From Cellulosimicrobium cellulans (GTDB lineage Bacteria > Actinomycetota > Actinomycetes > Actinomycetales > Cellulomonadaceae): a DNA stretch of 64,000 nt. Under the pieces are notes generated by a model. It worked only from the letters and a program-made list of their open reading frames with translations, was not told where the DNA came from and searched no databases. Shown one piece after another: positions 21,040 through 64,000 of this stretch. The translations under genes and the position numbers were made by a program. The stretch lies in NCBI RefSeq assembly GCF_016921195.1, contig NZ_JAFGYF010000006.1, positions 62,001 through 126,000 on the forward strand. Direction: 5' to 3'. Position 1 is the stretch's first letter, and the number at the start of each line of letters is the position of its first letter.

Positions 21040-23622
21040 TCAGGACGTCGCGGCGCGGGTCACCACGTTCACCACGTGCGGCTCGCGCACGACGACGCGC
21101 ACGACCTCGCGCCCGGCCGTCGCCCGCGCGACGCCGGTCGTCGCGAGCGCGAGGTCGTGCAGCGCACGCTCGTCGACGTCCGCGGGCACACGCACCCGGT
21201 CGCGGACCTTCCCGTCGACCTGCACGGCCGCCTCGACCTCGTCCGCGGCGAGCAGCCCCGGGTCGACGACGGGCCAGGTCGCGTCAGCCACCGACGGCTC
21301 GCGACCCAGCCGGTGCCAGGCCTCCTCGGCCGTGTGCGGCGCGAACAGGCTCAGGAGGACCGCGACCACCTCGACGGCCTCGCGCACGGCGGCGGCGTGG
21401 GCGACGCCGTCCTCGTCCGGTGCCGGGCCGACCTCGGACGCCCGGCGCGCGGCGGTGACGAGCTCCATGACGCGCGCGACGACCACGTTGAACCGGCTGC
21501 GGTCGAGCAGGTCCTGCGACTCGTGCACGGTCCGGTGCGTGGCACGGCGCAGCGCGTGCGCGCGCGAGCCGAACCTGACGACATCCCGCGCCCCGGGGCC
21601 GGACGTGCCGTGCCCGGTGTCCGGGCCGACGGCATCCGAGAGCCGCAGCACGCGCGCGCAGAACCGCCGCATGGCGTCCGGGTCGACGTCGGCCCAGTCC
21701 ACGTCGTCCTCCGGCGGCCCCGCGAACACCATCGCGAGGCGCACCGCGTCGGCGCCGTGCCGGTCGAGCTGCTCGCCCAGGTCGACGCCGTTGCCGAGCG
21801 ACTTGCTCATGGCCCGCCCGCCGCCCAGGACCTGTCCCTGGTTGAGCAAGGTCGCGAACGGCTCGACGACGTCCACCCACCCCTCGTCGTGCAGGAACTT
21901 CGTGACGAACCGGCTGTACAGCAGGTGCAGGATCGCGTGCTCGACGCCACCCACGTACTGCGCCGCGGGCATCCACCGCCGCGCGTCCTCGGGACGGAAC
22001 GGCACGTCGTCGGTCACGCCGTCGCCTACCGAGCAGTACCGCAGGAAGTACCAGGACGAGTCCACGAACGTGTCGAGCGTGTCCGGGTCGCGCTCGGAGG
22101 CCGCGCCGCAGCGCGGGCACGGCACGCACCGCCACGCGTCGGCGGCGGGGGAGGCGAGCGGCGAGCGTCCGCGAGGCAGCAGGTCGTCGCCGGCCAGGTC
22201 GGGCAGCCGCACGGGCAGCTCGTCGTCGGGGACGGGCACGACGCCGCAGCCGGGGCAGTGCACGACCGGCACCGGGGCGCCCCAGTAGCGCTGGCGCGAG
22301 ACGAGCCAGTCGCGCAGCCGGTACGACGTCGCGCGCTCGCCCGCGCCGTCGGCCTCCAGCCGCGTGATCGCCTCCTCGACGCCGGGCCACGTCTCGCCCG
22401 ACCCGGTGGGCAGGCCGTGCGCGGCGGCGAAGCGCGCGTCGCGGTCGTCGTGCGCGGGCACGCCCATGACAGCGCCCGTCCCGTAGCGGGGCAGCACGTG
22501 GTCGGCGGCCCACACTGGCAGTCGCTCGCCGGTGCCGGGGTGGCGGACCCAGGCACCCAGGAACGTCCCGGCGCTCGGGCGCTGCGCGTTCGTGCGCTCG
22601 ATCTCCCCGGAGGCCAGCGCGGCCTCGCGGTGCCGGGCGAGGGCGTCCGCGTGCTCGGGCGCGCACAGCGCCGCCGCGAGCGGCCCGTCCGGCGCGACGG
22701 CGACGAACGTCGCGCCGGGCAGGGTGTCGGGGCGCGTGGTGAAGACCTCGACGTGCTCCGGGCGAGCGCCCGCACCGGGTGAGGCGCTCGCGGTGGCGCG
22801 CGGACCGCCGTCGGGCACGACCGCGAAGCGCACGCGTGCGCCCGCGCTCCGCCCGATCCAGTTCCGCTGCATCGTCAGGACGCGCGCGGGCCACGCGCCC
22901 GCGAGCGCGTCCATGTCGTCGAGCAGCCGGTCCGCGTAGGCGGTGACGCGCACGAACCACTGCGTGAGCTCGCGTTGCACCACGGCCGCCCCGCACCGCT
23001 CGCACCGTCCGCCCACGACCTGCTCGTTGGCGAGCACCGTCCGGTCGGCGGGGCACCAGTTGACCGGGGCCGTCGCGCGGTAGGCGAGGCCGCGCTCCAG
23101 CAGGCGCAGGAACAGCCACTGGGTCCACCGGTAGTACTCCGGGCGGTGGGTCTCCAGGCGGCGCGACCAGTCGAACGACACCCCGTACCGGTGTGCCGTC
23201 GCGGCCTGTGCCGCGATGTTGGTCTCGGTGAAGACGGCGGGGTTCTCGCCCCGGCGGATGGCCGCGTTCTCGGCGGACAGCCCGAACGAGTCCCAGCCGA
23301 TCGGGTTGAGCACGTCGTACCCGCGCAGGCGCCAGTACCGCGCGACGACGTCCTCCAGGGCGAACACCTCGGCGTGACCCATGTGCAGGTCGCCTGAGGG
23401 GTACGGGAACATCGTCAGCAGGTACCGGCGGGGCCGCGCGCCGTCGTCGCGCGCGCGGAACGTGCCGTGCTCGGCCCAGTACCGCTGCCAGCGGACCTCG
23501 ACCTCGCGCGTCGACCCGCCGAGCATGCGGTCGTCGCCCGAGACCGGCCCGGCACGGTCGCTACCCGCATGGTCGGCGGGGTGGGAGGGGTGGGTGGGGT
23601 GGGGTGGGGGTGCGGCGTCCAC
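21040..23622 (-). CDS. leuS: Leucyl-tRNA synthetase
   Basis: 860 residues from GTG 23622, which follows GAGGAG by 7 nt. Class I motifs are HMGH (residues 80-83, in 'PYPSGDLHMGHAEVFA') and AMSKS (604-608), where the first Lys of KMSKS is Ala but the catalytic second Lys is kept. The CP1 editing domain keeps 'FTTRPDT' and 'GTGAVMGVPAHDDRDARFA', with a shortened segment after it. Residues 2-36 are Pro/His-rich and then encoded by a 64-bp palindromic repeat; homology to other LeuRS begins at about 'TREVEVRWQRYW'. An ATG at 23526 would give 828 residues but has no clear ribosome-binding site. It may be the only leuS or a second copy. Confidence 0.93.
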   Translation of the reverse strand: MDAAPPPHPTHPSHPADHAGSDRAGPVSGDDRMLGGSTREVEVRWQRYWAEHGTFRARDDGARPRRYLLTMFPYPSGDLHMGHAEVFALEDVVARYWRLRGYDVLNPIGWDSFGLSAENAAIRRGENPAVFTETNIAAQAATAHRYGVSFDWSRRLETHRPEYYRWTQWLFLRLLERGLAYRATAPVNWCPADRTVLANEQVVGGRCERCGAAVVQRELTQWFVRVTAYADRLLDDMDALAGAWPARVLTMQRNWIGRSAGARVRFAVVPDGGPRATASASPGAGARPEHVEVFTTRPDTLPGATFVAVAPDGPLAAALCAPEHADALARHREAALASGEIERTNAQRPSAGTFLGAWVRHPGTGERLPVWAADHVLPRYGTGAVMGVPAHDDRDARFAAAHGLPTGSGETWPGVEEAITRLEADGAGERATSYRLRDWLVSRQRYWGAPVPVVHCPGCGVVPVPDDELPVRLPDLAGDDLLPRGRSPLASPAADAWRCVPCPRCGAASERDPDTLDTFVDSSWYFLRYCSVGDGVTDDVPFRPEDARRWMPAAQYVGGVEHAILHLLYSRFVTKFLHDEGWVDVVEPFATLLNQGQVLGGGRAMSKSLGNGVDLGEQLDRHGADAVRLAMVFAGPPEDDVDWADVDPDAMRRFCARVLRLSDAVGPDTGHGTSGPGARDVVRFGSRAHALRRATHRTVHESQDLLDRSRFNVVVARVMELVTAARRASEVGPAPDEDGVAHAAAVREAVEVVAVLLSLFAPHTAEEAWHRLGREPSVADATWPVVDPGLLAADEVEAAVQVDGKVRDRVRVPADVDERALHDLALATTGVARATAGREVVRVVVREPHVVNVVTRAATS
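23516..23579. repeat. 64-bp palindromic repeat, copy A, inside the leuS 5' coding region
   Basis: Outer arms CCGCCGAGCATG (23516-23527) and CATGGTCGGCGG (23568-23579) pair with one mismatch. The first 19 nt are identical to copy B at 40019-40082, and the two copies have exactly the same length. Confidence 0.6.
23579..23612 (+). other. G-run tract with quadruplex potential
   Basis: At least five runs of three to five G separated by single T or TGGGA-like spacers on the plus strand, the template strand of leuS. It encodes the Pro/His run at leuS residues 4-14 and abuts repeat copy A. Confidence 0.5.
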
Positions 23623-23627
23623 GGGAA

Positions 23628-23748
23628 GGCTCCTCGAGACGGTGGGCTTCGTCGTCGGGCACTCGCCCGGTCCCGTGAGGACGCGCGGGCATCGCCGCGC
23701 TGAGCGTGCCCGCCCGGCGGGCTCAGCGCGGCCGGCGAAGGAGGAGCC
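23628..23748 (-). promoter_or_regulatory. leuS leader: Leu codons complementary to the leuS Shine-Dalgarno
   Basis: On the minus strand GGCTCCTC (23741-23748, part of the leader-peptide Leu codons) is the exact complement of GAGGAGCC (23628-23635, the leuS Shine-Dalgarno region). The Leu-codon run also contains CCTCCTT, the core of the 16S rRNA anti-Shine-Dalgarno. Pairing would close the leuS start unless a ribosome occupies the Leu codons. Confidence 0.5.
23695..23731 (-). promoter_or_regulatory. Attenuator-like hairpin in the leuS leader
   Basis: CCGCGCTGAGC (23695-23705) and GCTCAGCGCGG (23721-23731) form a perfect 11-bp stem with a 15-nt loop. The proximal arm overlaps the last codons and stop of the leader peptide. 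An alternative GCCCG/CGGGC pairing inside the loop competes with its base. No T-tract follows. Confidence 0.55.
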
Positions 23749-23761
23749 GCAGGTGTCGCAT
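23723..23761 (-). CDS. Candidate leader peptide of leuS with three consecutive Leu codons
   Basis: Twelve codons, [12 protein letters not shown], from the ATG at 23761, with four Leu including the run CTC-CTC-CTT. It ends inside the first arm of an 11-bp hairpin. The ATG lies 7 nt after a CACAAT -10, so translation would start at or within 1 nt of the RNA 5' end. A short Leu-rich frame before a leucyl-tRNA synthetase gene is what ribosome-mediated attenuation requires. Too short for homology to help; confidence rests on position, codon run and structure. Confidence 0.55.
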
Positions 23762-23768
23762 CCCGGAC

Positions 23769-23798
23769 ATTGTGACCCGCCCGACGGCGCAGGGTCAA
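23769..23798 (-). promoter_or_regulatory. Promoter of the leuS leader
   Basis: Minus strand: TTGACC (23793-23798), an 18-nt spacer, CACAAT (23769-23774). The best sigma-70-like promoter on this stretch. Transcription would start near 23762. Confidence 0.65.
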
Positions 23799-23866
23799 CC
23801 CTGGCGGGCCTCTCGGGTGTGGCGGACGTCGCGCGCAACGGCGCGCCACGGCCGATCCCGCGCCAG

Positions 23867-23872
23867 TAGGCT
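23867..23872 (+). promoter_or_regulatory. -10 hexamer of leaderless lpd
   Basis: TAGGCT followed by 7 nt and the ATG at 23880, back-to-back with the leuS leader promoter about 70 nt away. Confidence 0.5.
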
Positions 23873-23879
23873 TGACGCC

Positions 23880-25286
23880 ATGGCATCCCACTACGACGTC
23901 GTCGTCCTCGGTGCAGGTCCCGGTGGTTACGTGGCCGCGATCCGTGCAGCCCAGCTGGGCCTGTCGGTCGCGGTCGTGGAGGAGAAGTACTGGGGTGGGG
24001 TGTGCCTCAACGTGGGCTGCATCCCGTCCAAGGCGCTCCTGCGCAACGCCGAGCTCGCGCACATCTTCACCCACGACGCGAAGACCTTCGGCATCTCCGG
24101 AGACGTCAGCTTCGACTTCGGTGCGGCGTTCGACCGTTCGCGCACCGTGGCGGAGGGGCGCGTCAAGGGCGTGCACTTCCTCATGAAGAAGAACAAGATC
24201 ACCGAGTACGACGGCCGCGGCACGTTCCGCGACGCGCACACGCTCGACGTGAAGCTCGCCGACGGCTCGACCGACCAGGTGACGTTCGACAACGTCATCA
24301 TCGCGACCGGCTCGAAGGTGCGCCTGCTCCCGGGCGTCGAGCTGTCCGAGAACGTCGTCACGTACGAGAAGCAGATCCTCACGCGCGACCTGCCGAAGTC
24401 GATCGCCATCGTCGGCGCCGGCGCGATCGGCATGGAGTTCGGCTACGTCCTCAAGAACTACGGCGTGGACGTCACGATCATCGAGTTCCTCGACCGGGCG
24501 CTGCCCAACGAGGACGCCGACGTGTCGAAGGAGATCGCCAAGCAGTACAAGAAGCTCGGCGTCAACCTCCTCACGTCGACCGCCGTCCAGACGGTCAAGG
24601 ACAACGGCACGGACGGCGTCACGGTCACCTACAAGGGCGTCAAGGACGACAAGCCGGGCGAGCTCGTCGTCGACAAGGTGCTCATGGCCGTCGGCTTCGC
24701 GCCCAACGTCGAGGGCTTCGGCCTCGAGAACACCGGCGTCCAGCTCACCGAGCGCGGCGCCATCGCGATCGACGACGTCATGCGCACCAACGTCGAGCAC
24801 ATCTACGCGATCGGCGACGTCACCGCGAAGCTCATGCTCGCGCACGTCGCGGAGGCGCAGGGCGTCGTCGCGGCAGAGACCATCGGTGGCGCCGAGACCC
24901 TCACGCTCGGCGACTACCGCATGATGCCGCGCGCGACGTTCTGCCAGCCGCAGGTCGCGAGCTTCGGCCTCACCGAGCAGCAGGCCCGCGACGAGGGCTA
25001 CAAGGTCAAGGTCGCGACCTTCCCGTTCATGGCGAACGGCAAGGCCCACGGCCTCGGCGACCCGACCGGCTTCGTCAAGCTCATCTCCGACGAGACCTAC
25101 GGCGAGCTCCTCGGCGGCCACCTCATCGGCCCCGACGTCTCCGAGATGCTGCCCGAGCTCACCCTCGCGCAGAAGTGGGACCTCACCGTCAACGAGGTGG
25201 CGCGCAACGTGCACACCCACCCGACGCTGTCCGAGGCCGTCCAGGAGTCGATCCACGGCCTCGCGGGGCACATGATCAACTTCTGA
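23880..25286 (+). CDS. lpd: Dihydrolipoyl dehydrogenase
   Basis: 468 residues. It is the E3 flavoprotein that reoxidises dihydrolipoamide with NAD+ in 2-oxoacid dehydrogenase and glycine cleavage complexes. FAD site '[19 protein letters not shown]' at the N-terminus, redox-active disulfide in '[13 protein letters not shown]' near residues 40-52, NAD site '[21 protein letters not shown]', and the C-terminal base pair His-Glu in 'HTHPTLSEA'. No E1 or E2 gene is nearby, so this is a stand-alone copy serving complexes elsewhere. Codon use is strongly biased to GC-ending codons with AAG for Lys, fitting high expression. A strong terminator follows. Confidence 0.96.
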
Positions 25287-58800: not shown

Positions 58801-60603
58801 CTACCGCGGCGCGGGCGTCTCCTGGTCGAGCGCCCACCGGTAGGCCGGGAGCGCGAGCAGCTCGGCGTGCGTCCCGCGCGCGACGACCCGCGCCGGAGCA
58901 TCGTCGGTGCTCTCGGGGACACCGAGGAGCAGCACCTCGTCGACGCACTCGAGCGCGCTGAGCCGGTGCGTCGCGAGGACGACGCCACGCCGGCCCGCCC
59001 CGGCCGGCCCGCGCGTCGTCGCGACGAGGTGCCGCACGAGCGCGTCGGCGCCGGCCGCGTCGAGGTGCTCGGACGGCTCGTCGAGCAGGAGCAGCGGCGC
59101 GGAGGACAGGAGCGCCCGCGCGACGAGCAGACGACGGCGCTCGCCGCCGGAGACCGTGGTGGCGTCCGGGCCGAGCAACGTCTCGACACCGTCCGGCAGC
59201 GCGGCGAGCCAGGCGTCCAGGCCGACGTCGTGCAGCGTCGCCACGGCCTCCTCCGCCGTGACGTCGCCCCGCGCGACGCGCAGGTTCTCCAGCACCGTCG
59301 TGTCGAAGACGTGCCCGTCCTCGGCGACGAGGACGACGCCGCGCGCCGCGCCCTCCCGCGACAGGTCGCCGATCCGCGACCCGTCGAGCGACACCCGGCC
59401 CGCGAGCGCCGGGACGAGGCCCGCGGCGGTCGCGAGCAGCGTCGTCTTGCCGACGCCCGACGGTCCGACGACGGCGACCGCGCGCCCGGGCCGGAGGTCG
59501 AGGTCCGCGCCCGCCACGACGGCGCGCCGAGCCCCCGGCCAGCCGGCCGTGACGTCGTCGAGCACGAGCGTCGCCCCGGCGCCCGCCGGGGTGCGCCCCG
59601 ACGAGGCCGTGGCGTCGTCGTCGGCCGAGCCGGCGAGCAGACCGACCACCCGTGCCGCGGCCTGGCGCGAGCGGTGGAGCTGCACGGCGGCGGCGGGCAG
59701 CGTGCTCGCGGCCTCGAACACCGCGAGCGGCGTGAGCACGATCACCAACAGCTCCACCGGCGCGAGCGTCCCGGCCGTGACCGCCGGGATGCCGAGCAGG
59801 AGCGACGCGAGCACCGCGAGGCCGACGGCGAGCGCGGCGATCCCGGCGGCCGCCCCGGCGGGGCGGGCGCCGTCGTCGGTGACGCGGGCGAGGGCCCGGT
59901 CGGTCGCGCGCAGGTCGTCGAGGCGCGCGCCGAGCCGACCCGAGACGGCGAGCGGGCCGGACTGCTCGAGGATCTCGAGCGTCGTCGCGGTCATCGCCGC
60001 GCGTGTTGTCGCGCCGCGCGCCTCGACCTCGCGGGCCGACCGTGCGGAGAGCCACGGCGCGACGACCGCGGCGAGGAGCAGGCACAGCGCGAGGGCGACG
60101 CCCGCGGCGGGCAGGAACGCCCCGACGAGGACCACGGACCCCACGGAGATCACGAGCGCGACGCCTGCCGGGACGAGCGCGCGCACGACGACGTCGCCCA
60201 CCGCGTCGACGTCCGCGCCGACCCGGGCGAGCAGGTCGCCGCGCCGCAGCCCGACGAGCGCGCCCGGCGACCCCTCCGCCAGGGCGGTGTAGAGGTTGGC
60301 GCGCAGGGACGCCATGCCGCGCAGCGCGACGTCGTGCGAGGCGAGGCGCTCGAGGTAGCGGAACACCCCGCGCGAGATGCCGAACGCGCGGACGCCGACG
60401 ACCGCGACGGAGAGCGTGAGGACGGGCGGCATCTGCGAGGCCCGGGCGATGAGCCACGCGGCGACGGCCGCGAGACCGACGGCGCTCCCGAGCGAGAGCG
60501 TGCCCAGCACGACGGCCCACACCACGCGGCCCCAGCGCACGTCGAGCAGCCCGACCGCGCGCCACAGCGGGTCGGCCGCGAGGCGCGCACGAGGTCCGGT
60601 CAC
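58801..60603 (-). CDS. cydC: Thiol reductant ABC exporter subunit CydC
   Basis: 600 residues. Type IV ABC exporter half: six membrane segments (about 20-320, 'VVWAVVLGTLSLGSAVGLAAVAAWLI' first) and an ATPase domain with 'VVGPSGVGKTTLLA' (Walker A), 'TVSGGERRRLLVARALLSSAPLLLLDEPSEHLD' (signature and Walker B) and the switch His in 'VLATHRLSA'. With CydD it exports glutathione-type thiols or cysteine for periplasmic redox balance and cytochrome bd assembly. It overlaps the cydD stop by 4 nt. It is the last gene of cydABDC. Confidence 0.95.
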   Translation of the reverse strand: MTGPRARLAADPLWRAVGLLDVRWGRVVWAVVLGTLSLGSAVGLAAVAAWLIARASQMPPVLTLSVAVVGVRAFGISRGVFRYLERLASHDVALRGMASLRANLYTALAEGSPGALVGLRRGDLLARVGADVDAVGDVVVRALVPAGVALVISVGSVVLVGAFLPAAGVALALCLLLAAVVAPWLSARSAREVEARGATTRAAMTATTLEILEQSGPLAVSGRLGARLDDLRATDRALARVTDDGARPAGAAAGIAALAVGLAVLASLLLGIPAVTAGTLAPVELLVIVLTPLAVFEAASTLPAAAVQLHRSRQAAARVVGLLAGSADDDATASSGRTPAGAGATLVLDDVTAGWPGARRAVVAGADLDLRPGRAVAVVGPSGVGKTTLLATAAGLVPALAGRVSLDGSRIGDLSREGAARGVVLVAEDGHVFDTTVLENLRVARGDVTAEEAVATLHDVGLDAWLAALPDGVETLLGPDATTVSGGERRRLLVARALLSSAPLLLLDEPSEHLDAAGADALVRHLVATTRGPAGAGRRGVVLATHRLSALECVDEVLLLGVPESTDDAPARVVARGTHAELLALPAYRWALDQETPAPR

Positions 60604-62366
60604 GGGTGCCTCCCTTCGGCGGGCCCGCTCGCCGCTGCGAGCCGGACCGATGCCTCCGCGTCCCCGGCGGCGCGTGGGGGCGTGACCGTCAGGGGCGCGG
60701 AGCGGACCTCGACGACGTCGTCGGCCGCGCGCACGAGCGAGGCGCGGTGGGCCACGACGACGACGGTGCGGCCCTGGTCGCGGAACGTCCGCACGGCGTC
60801 GAGCACCACCTGCTCGCCGCGGGCGTCGAGGTGGGCGGTCGGCTCGTCGAGCACGACGAGCGGGACGCGCGCGGGGTCGCCGAGCAGGGCCGCGGCGAGC
60901 GCGACGCGCTGGCGCTGACCGACGCTCAGCCCGACGCCGCCGCGCCCGACCTCGGTGTCCCAGCCCGAGGGCAGCGTGGCGAGCACGGCGTCGAGGCCGG
61001 CGGTGCGGGCCGCACGGTCGAGGTCGGCGTCCGTGACGTCCAGGCCGTCGGCGACGACGTCGCGCAGCCGGCCGGGTGCGAGCACGGGCCGCTGGGGGAG
61101 CCAGGCGACCTGGGCCCAGAACGACGCCGGGTCGACGTCGGCGAGGTCGAGCGGCCCGGCGCCCGGAGCGGTCAGGGAGACCGTGCCCCGGTCGGGGCGG
61201 ACGAGGCCGAGGAGGACGAGCGCCGTCGTCGTCTTGCCCGCTCCGCTGGGACCGGTGAGGGCCACGACGCGCCCGGACGTGCCGAGCCGGAGCTCGAGAT
61301 CGAGGTCGGCGGGCGCGAGCACGTCACGATCCCCGGCGCGGACGCTCACGCCGCGCAGGGCGAGCGTGCTGCCGGCGAGCGCGGGCGCCGGGGTGGTACC
61401 GGGCTCGGGAGCCTCCTCGTCGAGCACCGCGAACGCCTGCTCCGCCGCGGCCATGCCGTCGGTCGAGGCGTGGAAGTGGAGGCCGACCTGGCGCAGCGGC
61501 AGGTAGACCTCGGGCGCGAGCACGAGCACCGCGAGCGCGGGCTCGAGCTCCATGCCGCCGTGCACGAGGCGCAGCCCGACGCCGACGGCGACGACCGCCA
61601 CGGACAGGGTCGTGAGGAGCTCGAGCACCATGCCGGAGAGGAACGCGACGCGCAGCGTGCCCATCGTGGCGCGGCGGTTGGCCTCGCCGAGCGCGCGCAC
61701 GCGCCGCTCGGGGCCGCGCGCGCGACCGAACGCGAGGAGCGTCGGCAGACCGGCGAGCAGGTCGAGCACCTGCGCGCCGAGCCGCTGCATGACGACGAGG
61801 CGCCGCTCCGACGTCCCGGCGGTGAGCCGTCCGACGAGCACCATGAAGAGCGGCACGAGCGGAATCGTCACGGCGATGACCACGGCGGAGACCCAGTCGA
61901 GGCCGAGCACGACGGCGAGCGTGGCCGGCGTGACCGTCGCGGCGAGCAGGAGCTGCGGCAGGTACCGCACCATGTACGGCTCGAGGGCGTCGAGCCCGCG
62001 CGTCGCGAGGGTCGCGACCTCGGGGCCGCGGCCCGACGCCAGCCACCGAGGGCCGAGGGCCACGGCGTGCGTGACGACCTGCTCGCGGAGCTCGGCGACG
62101 GTGCGCGTCGCGGCGCGCAGCGCGAACCGCTCCTGCGCCCAGGAGGTCGCGGCGCGGGCCGCGACGACGGCGCCGAGCAGCCCGACCCGCGGCCCGAGGT
62201 CGGCCAGGTCGGCCGTCCCCTGGATCGCCGGCGCGAGGACCGACGCGAGCACGACCGCCTGGGCGACGACGAGGGCCGCGGTGGCGAACCCCAGCACCGC
62301 CGTCAGGACGACGTATCCTCGCGCGGCCCGCGCGTGGCGCAGGAGCCGCGGGTCGAGCGGCTTCAC
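60600..62366 (-). CDS. cydD: Thiol reductant ABC exporter subunit CydD
   Basis: 588 residues from GTG 62366. Membrane domain about 15-310 with 'VVLTAVLGFATAALVVAQAVVLASVLA' and 'DGMAAAEQAFAVLDEEAPEP'. The ATPase domain has 'ALTGPSGAGKTTTALVLLG', 'GVGLSVGQRQRVALAAALL', 'VLDEPTAHLDARGEQ' and 'VVVVAHRASLV'. It pairs with CydC and is required for assembly of cytochrome bd. The start overlaps the cydB stop (GTGA), and the cydC start lies in its own stop, so cydB-cydD-cydC are translationally chained. Confidence 0.95.
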   Translation of the reverse strand: MKPLDPRLLRHARAARGYVVLTAVLGFATAALVVAQAVVLASVLAPAIQGTADLADLGPRVGLLGAVVAARAATSWAQERFALRAATRTVAELREQVVTHAVALGPRWLASGRGPEVATLATRGLDALEPYMVRYLPQLLLAATVTPATLAVVLGLDWVSAVVIAVTIPLVPLFMVLVGRLTAGTSERRLVVMQRLGAQVLDLLAGLPTLLAFGRARGPERRVRALGEANRRATMGTLRVAFLSGMVLELLTTLSVAVVAVGVGLRLVHGGMELEPALAVLVLAPEVYLPLRQVGLHFHASTDGMAAAEQAFAVLDEEAPEPGTTPAPALAGSTLALRGVSVRAGDRDVLAPADLDLELRLGTSGRVVALTGPSGAGKTTTALVLLGLVRPDRGTVSLTAPGAGPLDLADVDPASFWAQVAWLPQRPVLAPGRLRDVVADGLDVTDADLDRAARTAGLDAVLATLPSGWDTEVGRGGVGLSVGQRQRVALAAALLGDPARVPLVVLDEPTAHLDARGEQVVLDAVRTFRDQGRTVVVVAHRASLVRAADDVVEVRSAPLTVTPPRAAGDAEASVRLAAASGPAEGRHP

Positions 62367-63475
62367 GAGCCGGTTCCCCCGCCGTCGGTCAGGCCGCGGC
62401 CGGTCGAGCCGCCCGAGGACGCCCCGCCGAACGCAGCCTCGCGGACCTTCTTGAGCGACAGGCCGGCGGGCGCGGGGATGTCCTTGGTCGACAGGCGGCG
62501 GCGGAACACCCAGTACGTCCACGACTGGTAGGCGATGACGAGCGGCGTGAGGATCACCGCGACCCACGTCATCACGGTGAGCGTGTAGTCGGTCGACGAC
62601 GCGTTGTGCACGGTCAGCGAGTTGGCCGGGTCGACGGCGGGCATGACGTCGGGGTACATCGAGCCGAAGATGAGCACGACCGCCGCGACGATCGTCGCGG
62701 CCGACGCGGTGAAGGCCCAGCCCTCGGCGCCGCGCCGGTTGGCGACGAGCGCCGCGACGAGACCGCCGGCGGCGAGCACGACGGCGGCCCACGTCCAGGG
62801 CACCGAGTACGCGACCTGGGCCCAGACGGCCCAGCCACCGGCGAGCACGAGCGCGGCGACGCCGAAGACCGAGGCGTGCCGGCGCGCGCGGGCGCGGATC
62901 TCGCCGTCGGTCTTGAGCGCGACGAACACCGAGCCGTGCAGCAGGAACAGGCTCAGCGTGACGAGGCCGCCCAGGAGCGCGAAGGGTGACAGGAGCGAGA
63001 AGAAGCCGCCGACGAACTGGTGGTCGGCGTCGAGCTGCACGCCGCGCACGAGGTTGGCGAACGCGACGCCCCACAGCACGGCGGGGACCCACGACCCGAC
63101 CTGGATCGCGACGTCGCAGCGCCGTGCCCAGCCCTCGTCGCGGATCTTGCCGCGGTACTCGAACGCCACACCGCGCACGATGAGCGCGACGAGGATGAGC
63201 AGGAGCGGCAGGTAGAAGCCGGAGAAGAGGGTCGCGTACCACTCGGGGAAGGCGGCGAACGTCGCGCCGCCCGCGGTGAGCAGCCACACCTCGTTCCCGT
63301 CCCAGACGGGCCCGATGGAGTTGATGAGGACGCGGCGCTCCTTCTCCCGGTGCTCCTTGTCCCCGCGCGGCAGGATCGACAGCAGCATGCCGACCCCGAA
63401 GTCGAAGCCCTCGAGCACGAGGTAGCCGGTCCACAGGACCGCGATGAGCACGAACCAGACGACGGCGAGATCCAC
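62363..63475 (-). CDS. cydB: Cytochrome bd ubiquinol oxidase subunit II
   Basis: 370 residues with about eight to nine membrane segments. The family opening 'VWFVLIAVLWTGYLVLEGFDFGVGMLLSILPR' and 'RVLINSIGPVWDGNEVWLLTAGGATFAAFPEWYATLFSGFYLPLLLIL' are canonical. Subunit II of the bd-type terminal oxidase, which works at low oxygen. A C-terminal Gly/Ser-rich tail (GGASSGGSTGRGLTDGG) is an actinobacterial addition. The GTG follows AGGAGG by 8 nt, so translation is independent of cydA. Confidence 0.97.
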   Translation of the reverse strand: MDLAVVWFVLIAVLWTGYLVLEGFDFGVGMLLSILPRGDKEHREKERRVLINSIGPVWDGNEVWLLTAGGATFAAFPEWYATLFSGFYLPLLLILVALIVRGVAFEYRGKIRDEGWARRCDVAIQVGSWVPAVLWGVAFANLVRGVQLDADHQFVGGFFSLLSPFALLGGLVTLSLFLLHGSVFVALKTDGEIRARARRHASVFGVAALVLAGGWAVWAQVAYSVPWTWAAVVLAAGGLVAALVANRRGAEGWAFTASAATIVAAVVLIFGSMYPDVMPAVDPANSLTVHNASSTDYTLTVMTWVAVILTPLVIAYQSWTYWVFRRRLSTKDIPAPAGLSLKKVREAAFGGASSGGSTGRGLTDGGGTGS

Positions 63476-63514
63476 GGCGGTGTCCTCCTGAGATTCTGGA
63501 CGGGTCCGGGCGCG

Positions 63515-64000
63515 TCAGTACGCGAAGGACAGCGGACGGTCGGCGGCCTCGGAGCCCTCGTCCGGCGGCTCCTGGGCCTCCGGGGACTCGTCGCGGACCG
63601 TGAGCGGGACGCCCTCGATCGCGTAGCGCCGCATGAGCGTGAACCAGACCGCGGCCAGCGCCCCGTAGACGAGCGTGAAGACGATCATCGACGTGAGCAC
63701 GACGCCGGGGCTCACCACGGTGGACACGCCCCGCTCGGTGAGCAGCCGGATCTGGTCGATGCCCGTCGGGTTCGGGGCGACGACCCACGGCTGGCGGCCC
63801 ATCTCGGTGAAGATCCAGCCGAAGGAGTTCGCGAGGAACGGCATGGGGATGGCGACGAGGCCGACGCGCGCGAACCACACGTTGTCGGTGACGCGGCCCT
63901 TGCGCGTGAGCCACAGCGCCATGAGGGCGAGGAGCACCGAGCCCGCGGCCATGCCGATCATGAGCCGGAAGGACCAGTAGGTCATGGCGAGGTTCGGCGT
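63515..64000 (-). CDS. cydA: Cytochrome bd ubiquinol oxidase subunit I, C-terminal part (cut by window edge)
   Basis: The visible 161 codons cover the C-terminus. 'FTEMGRQPWVV' is the conserved GRQPW block near the haem region of subunit I, and 'TYWSFRLMIGMAAGSVLLALMAL' plus two more membrane segments fit the last helices. The rest lies beyond the window. It is the first gene of the cydA-cydB-cydD-cydC operon, 39 nt from cydB. Confidence 0.95.
   Translation of the reverse strand, partial: TPNLAMTYWSFRLMIGMAAGSVLLALMALWLTRKGRVTDNVWFARVGLVAIPMPFLANSFGWIFTEMGRQPWVVAPNPTGIDQIRLLTERGVSTVVSPGVVLTSMIVFTLVYGALAAVWFTLMRRYAIEGVPLTVRDESPEAQEPPDEGSEAADRPLSFAY

Follow-up and report, generated by a model that had tools for sequence, protein, structure and literature searches.

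Attenuators have been proposed for the leucyl-tRNA synthetase genes (leuS) of S. coelicolor and S. avermitilis, in the passages of Seliverstov et al. 2005 that concern them (PMC1262725), and the cited passages on S. lividans TK24 report a leader peptide, LeuL2 (MRAVRLLLSEPR), that lies upstream of leuS, is transcribed leaderless, and has a hairpin and a run of uridines behind it (PMC8079986). Since leuS leader peptides have been published in Streptomyces, the basic phenomenon is already known. In the LEU element of leuA, the Leu codons and the Shine-Dalgarno sequence (SD) form a base stem; speaking against codon sensing, the same passages cite experiments on ilvB and on the LEU element in which altered regulatory codons, leucine codons in the latter case, made no difference. 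In place of codon sensing, they suggest that a protein binds the LEU element, with an ML1624-like helicase-domain protein as a candidate (Seliverstov et al. 2005, PMC1262725). Given this base stem, sensing codons that pair with an SD have already been described in these bacteria.

Other systems share single traits with the locus described below. The trpRS1 gene of Streptomyces encodes an auxiliary, indolmycin-resistant TrpRS under ribosome-mediated transcriptional attenuation. Mycobacterial polycysteine leader ORFs are leaderless and are thought to control a downstream SD, and in translational attenuation of the ermC type, a ribosome stalled on the leader uncovers the SD that had been masked.

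Here, we describe a leader in a 64,000-nt stretch of Cellulosimicrobium cellulans DNA (the window) that we consider rather likely to act as a ribosome-mediated attenuator of an auxiliary leucyl-tRNA synthetase (LeuRS), auxiliary in the sense that the genome holds a second synthetase for one amino acid. The leader resembles the Streptomyces leuS attenuators in its 12-residue peptide (MRAVRLLLSEPR there) with LLL at codons 6-8 and a terminal PR, in the hairpin over the stop codon, and in its position upstream of leuS, and one covariance model recovers both. It differs in that theirs carry an intrinsic terminator and a Leu-codon:SD match of 3-5 bp and serve a long-type leuS, whereas the gene here is a second, short-type one. 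As there is no terminator with a U stretch here, we regard the leader as related to the LeuL2-type transcriptional attenuators and do not file it among them. With the LEU element it shares the Leu-run leader, the hairpin, a loop pseudoknot (predicted here), and a Leu-codon:SD base stem (8 bp here), but that element precedes leuA and not leuS2, has other stem sequences, and ends in a longer peptide tail (..LLLRCRGEAL). As in trpRS1, a spare synthetase is preceded by a leader peptide for the amino acid that it charges; trpRS1 differs in its established transcriptional attenuation and drug resistance. The polycysteine leaders are alike, by description, as leaderless amino-acid-rich actinobacterial ORFs, and unlike in using cysteine and preceding other genes; ermC-type systems differ in their trigger, a ribosome-bound drug, and in a masking strand that is distinct from the sensing codons.

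The locus and its gene

The gene behind the leader, leuS2 (21040-23622, minus strand), has a GTG start and the SD GAGGAG and encodes a short-type LeuRS of 860 amino acids. Its product scores 802 bits against TIGR00396 (leuS_bact; cut-off 548.4) and aligns over its length with the T. thermophilus LeuRS 1h3n, including the HIGH, KMSKS, and editing-site stretches; its closest titled relative is from Cellulosimicrobium funkei (88%). An earlier note on this DNA had placed the leader upstream of leuS, and the gene is indeed one for a LeuRS, but it is the second LeuRS and not the main leuS. Both LeuRS genes of the genome lie on one contig. The main gene is of the long type, which 59 of 61 family genomes carry; a TAAACT stands 7 nt 5' of its GTG start, and we saw no Leu leader upstream of this gene. 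Short-type LeuRS occurs in 37 of 200 family genomes (read from the score list), in 15 of 17 same-genus genomes (its absence from the other two, G007 and G118, was checked), and also outside the family, elsewhere in the order and class. As leuS2 is missing from 2 of these 17 genomes, it is an extra, dispensable synthetase here. By analogy with the duplicated synthetases described in the cited passages (PMC9437257) and with trpRS1, leuS2 may serve as a backup. A search of the open-access literature for Cellulosimicrobium together with leucyl-tRNA synthetase found no paper, which is no proof of absence. One family genome (G022, locus L039) carries a divergent short LeuRS (62% identity); this genome shows neither a leader in the scanned stretch nor a long-type LeuRS at E<=1e-100.

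Upstream of leuS2, a promoter-like TTGACC-18-CACAAT (23798-23769, minus strand) matches at 9 of 12 positions and is the sole sigma-70-like match in 701 bases (23400-24100, both strands; shuffles gave a mean of 0.0, SD 0.1), which bears out the promoter named in the earlier note. Its TTGAC is retained at 15 of 15 same-genus loci. Judging from the promoter position, the transcript 5' end would lie at or adjoining the leader ATG, so that the ORF would be leaderless. The leader ORF itself (23761-23723, minus strand), 12 codons with consecutive CTC CTC CTT as previously noted, is in a different frame from leuS2, and the two starts are 139 nt apart. The leader stop codon lies within the 5' arm of a perfect hairpin, P1 (23694-23732, minus strand; arms GCCGCGCTGAGC/GCTCAGCGCGGC), which had been described as 11 bp long (23695-23731); the hairpin is real and perfect but comprises 12 bp. 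Within the P1 loop lies GGGCAC (23706-23711, minus strand), one strand of a predicted pseudoknot (PK), and 3' of P1 lies its partner GTGCCC (23657-23662, minus strand). The 8-nt complementarity that had been pointed out between the Leu codons (GGCTCCTC, 23741-23748, minus strand) and the leuS2 SD region (GAGGAGCC, 23628-23635, minus strand) is exact; we call this stem P0. Folding of the whole leader is just modestly more favorable than that of shuffles (z = -1.64).

An Rfam cmscan of the window at gathering scores returned two tRNAs only and no T-box or other riboswitch family, and on this result a T-box riboswitch identity was rejected. Elsewhere in the window, positions 60001-64000 show a strong AT skew (0.26), unlike the rest.

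Conservation of the leader and its hairpin

The leader is present at 35 of 37 short-LeuRS loci of the family, in variants such as MHVVRLLLTRPR (genus g21), MRSSLLLTPPR (g23), and MRTARSLLT (g7); in one relative, L033 (MRNARSPLT), a single Leu codon is left. It is missing from the scanned stretch at the two remaining loci, L028 and L039. At L028, the upstream region has been exchanged for other sequence, and a covariance-model match over P1 persists (1.1e-6). The earlier note had held that relatives keeping leuS while losing the Leu run and hairpin would speak against its reading; this combination occurs at only 1 or 2 of the 37 loci.

Across the short-type leuS loci, a short ORF containing LL was found upstream of 101 of 145, compared to a mean of 7.6 (maximum 14) in dinucleotide shuffles, and 82 of 145 also had a TANNNT box 5-8 nt 5' of the ATG (shuffles: mean 0.15, maximum 1), where 29 of the 145 loci offered <420 nt to scan. 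The same-genus leaders carry CACRAT or GACGAT as a weaker -10 and no TANNNT, and fall outside the 82. Conservation of the leader ORF exceeds chance. As a control, main leuS loci yielded an LL ORF in 9 of 30 cases by this loose test and the box as well in 1 of 30 (L194). Three of these nine control loci (L194, L204, and L209) are members of the leader family described here, as they are matched by R1, a covariance model of the leader core built from leuS leaders; the other six ORFs are unrelated.

Searched against the class at E<=0.001 with stricter filters, R1 matched 113 of 394 genomes, the window's own included, with one match each and two in one genome. Among the best 30 matches, all 29 that were not the window's own were followed, on the same strand, by a LeuRS gene, with the LeuRS match starting 135-232 nt 3' of the leader ATG. 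These 29 loci comprise 22 long-type and 7 short-type genes, where the assignment of L239 and L243 rests on the first 60-80 residues. The exact peptide MRAVRLLLSEPR is encoded at 14 of the 29, and MRAVRLLL with a different ending at six more; since the best matches come mostly from one genus, the 29 are not independent. Starts of these distant leaders were set in frame with the LeuRS match, which gave a start in 28 of 29 cases (L258 has none, and that of L240 is doubtful).

CTT closes the Leu run in 90 of 101 leaders and in 28 of 29 model matches. In this genome, CTT accounts for 1 of 285 Leu codons across six coding sequences, one of them partial. Such a rare final codon fits a charging sensor, but it might also result from a constraint at the RNA level.

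We analyzed the structure in an alignment (A1) of 33 of the 35 leader loci, having dropped L011, a near-copy of L010, and L037, for which the available stretch was too short. In P1, 5 of 10 counted pairs were altered on both sides in a compensated manner. For P1 together with six loop pairs, 98.5% of cells were paired versus 94.3% in shuffles, and the covariation score of P1 with PK was 0.175 versus 0.090; for these two measures and for the number of pairs altered on both sides, 0 of 500 shuffles were as high. Structures slid along A1 were just 28-47% paired. The number of further pair types was under the shuffle level (6 versus 8.0). Of the 33 leaders, 3 had a broken innermost counted pair of P1, and 5 had a broken outer pair of PK. 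The loop match GGCAC:GTGCC is present in 33 of 33 leaders, and the downstream GTGCCC is invariant in all of them. In one genus of another family (L127-L129), the strands read GAGCAC and GTGCTC, a matching change on both sides. This conserved match between loop and downstream stretch fits a predicted pseudoknot; in Streptomyces-type leaders, it was not evident by eye. P1 including its loop is identical in 14 of 14 aligned same-genus leaders, and the stretch 3' of it is variable. Judged by the alignment, the hairpin matters more than the earlier note had said, given its covariation and the match of its loop to an invariant stretch further downstream. The cross-genera comparison that the note had called for thus found the Leu run kept and compensatory changes in P1, but a mixed picture for the Leu-codon:SD stem, as set out below.

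Losses and exchanges were also seen at individual loci. In the same-genus genome G118 (L268/L273, C44:21290-21357), an orphan leader with P1 is present and leuS2 is gone, with flanks 95-96% identical to those in the window; G007 has neither leader nor leuS2. In three genomes (G027, G014, and G054; loci L267, L269, and L270), the same leader family stands before the main, long-type leuS, and the TAGAAT and GTG start of the long-type gene are still visible behind the leader. From these sequences, it looks like the synthetase was replaced behind a retained leader.

Pairing of the Leu codons with the Shine-Dalgarno region

Among the 14 aligned same-genus leaders, the Watson-Crick run of P0 is 8 bp in 12, 7 bp in 1, and 6 bp in 1. 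It is 4-9 bp in the 19 other family leaders. Of the 28 distant leaders, 27 have a run of 3-5 bp, and the remaining one, L234, a short-type locus with a terminator, has 7 bp. By itself, the 8-bp match is weak evidence, as Leu codons rich in pyrimidines readily match SDs rich in purines: when Leu-Arg-Leu-Leu-Leu-Arg is recoded at random with synonymous codons, 8% of draws give 8 bp with this SD, and the SD regions of other family genera reach at least 8 bp with this leader in 2 of 19 cases. When SDs were swapped between genera, own pairs were better for g1 and g21 against g7 and g3 (-0.8 to -5.5 kcal/mol), whereas the remaining genus pairs ranged from -1.8 to +2.1, and the true assignment ranked 17 of 120; an alternative swap test was confounded by GC-rich SDs. 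As co-adaptation is mixed, we do not use the swap test as proof.

The proposal of the earlier note that the sensing codons themselves are the sequestering strand stands insofar as the Leu codons can pair with the SD, but the long match is confined to this part of the tree, the co-adaptation of codons and SD does not hold in every genus pair, and SD masking by Leu codons has already been published for leuA. The likeness of CCTCCTT to the 16S anti-SD, to which the note had also drawn attention, looks incidental; Streptomyces-type leaders read CTT/CTC-CTG-CTT, and because they lack CCTCC, we set the mimicry aside.

Directly 3' of P1, leaders of g21, g23, g7, and g3 carry a terminator of the type CCCCTC..GAGGGG followed by a T run, and most distant leaders examined have the same terminator-type hairpin and T run. 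A run of four T is absent from 15 of 15 same-genus leaders, and no terminator-like site was found within 23400-24100. With the terminator of its relatives absent and P0 at its longest in this genus, we infer that control here is translational. The leaders of three short-LeuRS loci, L127-L129 (genomes G362, G426, and G471, of another family), also have no T run, and terminator loss may have occurred more than once.

The leuA loci carry a comparable arrangement. A Leu-run leader precedes each of the two leuA genes in this genome, one of which is a second leuA-like gene (L045, G000 C21:216067) with its own leader MSWTALLLRRHGGV; R1 gave no match to these two leaders at E<=1. By the pattern used, 30 of 32 family leuA loci have a Leu run (all except L161 and L184). 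The best match of this run, with 120 nt examined, is 5-9 bp, in 15 cases TCCTTCG:CGAAGGA or a longer form, and the flanks of the stem change in step, e.g., TCCTTCGG:CCGAAGGA and TCCTTCGCT:AGCGAAGGA. This stem corresponds to the published base stem of the LEU element.

A proposed translational switch and its alternatives

Using ViennaRNA folding, in which pseudoknots are outside the model, we computed SD accessibility for the 33 leaders and found a mean of 0.14 for the free leader that rose to 0.41, 0.40, and 0.39 with a ribosome at the first Leu codon, the last Leu codon, and the stop codon, respectively, versus 0.10 for a control mask of equal size placed elsewhere. For the window's own leader, the corresponding values were 0.00, 0.38, 0.38, and 0.35, with 0.00 for the control mask. 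Placing the ribosome on the first Leu codon increased accessibility in 30 of 33 leaders; 3 of 33 displayed no clear rise. The earlier suggestion that a stalled ribosome would free the leuS start is thus reproduced in the folding models, but a ribosome at the stop codon does nearly the same (0.39). Because it, too, frees the SD, the model requires a stalled ribosome to dwell longer than a terminating one.

In the mechanism that we propose, RNA polymerase would initiate at the leader ATG, and a ribosome would load onto the transcript 5' end. With ample Leu-tRNA, the 12 codons would be read fast, the ribosome would depart, and P1 would close, leaving its loop able to pair with the downstream GTGCCC in a pseudoknot. 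CTC-CTC-CTT would then pair with the leuS2 SD, and leuS2 would hardly be translated in the cell. If Leu-tRNA ran short, from scarce leucine or an impaired main LeuRS, the ribosome would wait on the Leu codons, cover them, and extend into P1, so that the SD would be free and leuS2 would be made. The best reading of the locus is a known leuS leader-peptide attenuator that moved from transcriptional to translational control and guards a dispensable spare synthetase. More specifically, and tentatively, an old leuS transcriptional attenuator may have lost its terminator and been rebuilt as a translational switch with the Leu codons as the SD mask, guarding an emergency LeuRS for failure of the main LeuRS or of leucine supply.

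An alternative is a transcriptional attenuator as proposed for leuS of Streptomyces, in which the leader would choose between termination and readthrough ahead of leuS2; in this genus, such an attenuator might use Rho or a non-canonical terminator. This view draws on the hairpin and T run behind P1 in g21, g23, g7, g3, and most distant leaders, and on the description of S. lividans LeuL2, in the cited passages, with a hairpin and uridine stretch (PMC8079986). We nevertheless think it unlikely, as 23400-24100 holds no terminator-like site, the 15 same-genus leaders hold no four-T run, and masking produced no antiterminator in 10 relatives. In these terminator-bearing relatives, a classical antiterminator was rejected, the terminator being still folded under the leader mask in 10 of 10; in L033 without a mask, the leader itself pairs with the 3' arm of the terminator. 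P1 abuts the terminator in terminator-bearing leaders (e.g., L017, L023, and L035), for which no antiterminator is predicted under masking.

The leader might also be a protein- or pseudoknot-binding element that does not sense codons, the mode of action favored by Seliverstov et al. for the LEU element of leuA. Within the family, the match between the P1 loop and GTGCCC is kept more strictly than the Leu codons, the leuA element has the same layout, the L033 relative is down to one Leu codon, and for the leuA element, mutated codons are cited as having had no effect (PMC1262725, passages on that element). However, Leu runs ending in the rare codon CTT are retained, together with the promoter spacing, in distant families with other P1 sequences, and the loop match is not evident by eye in Streptomyces-type leaders, which makes this possibility quite improbable in our view. 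Least probable is a fossil leader with no regulation in this genus since the loss of the terminator: G118 retains leader and P1 despite having lost leuS2, so a leader can persist for some time without its target, but P1 and its loop are identical in 14 same-genus leaders although the stretch behind them varies, and the Leu-codon:SD match is 6-8 bp in all 14.

Overall, we conclude that the leader is real and conserved and belongs to a known family of leucine leaders, and that in this genus it is a terminator-less, probably translational variant guarding an auxiliary LeuRS. A leucine-starvation switch tied to this second LeuRS, a duplicated synthetase, would predict when that copy is used. One family would offer a natural series of leaders with and without a terminator and with short or long codon:SD matches, on which a change from transcriptional to translational attenuation would be testable with real intermediates, and the same series may help settle how the leuA LEU element, which has the same layout, works.
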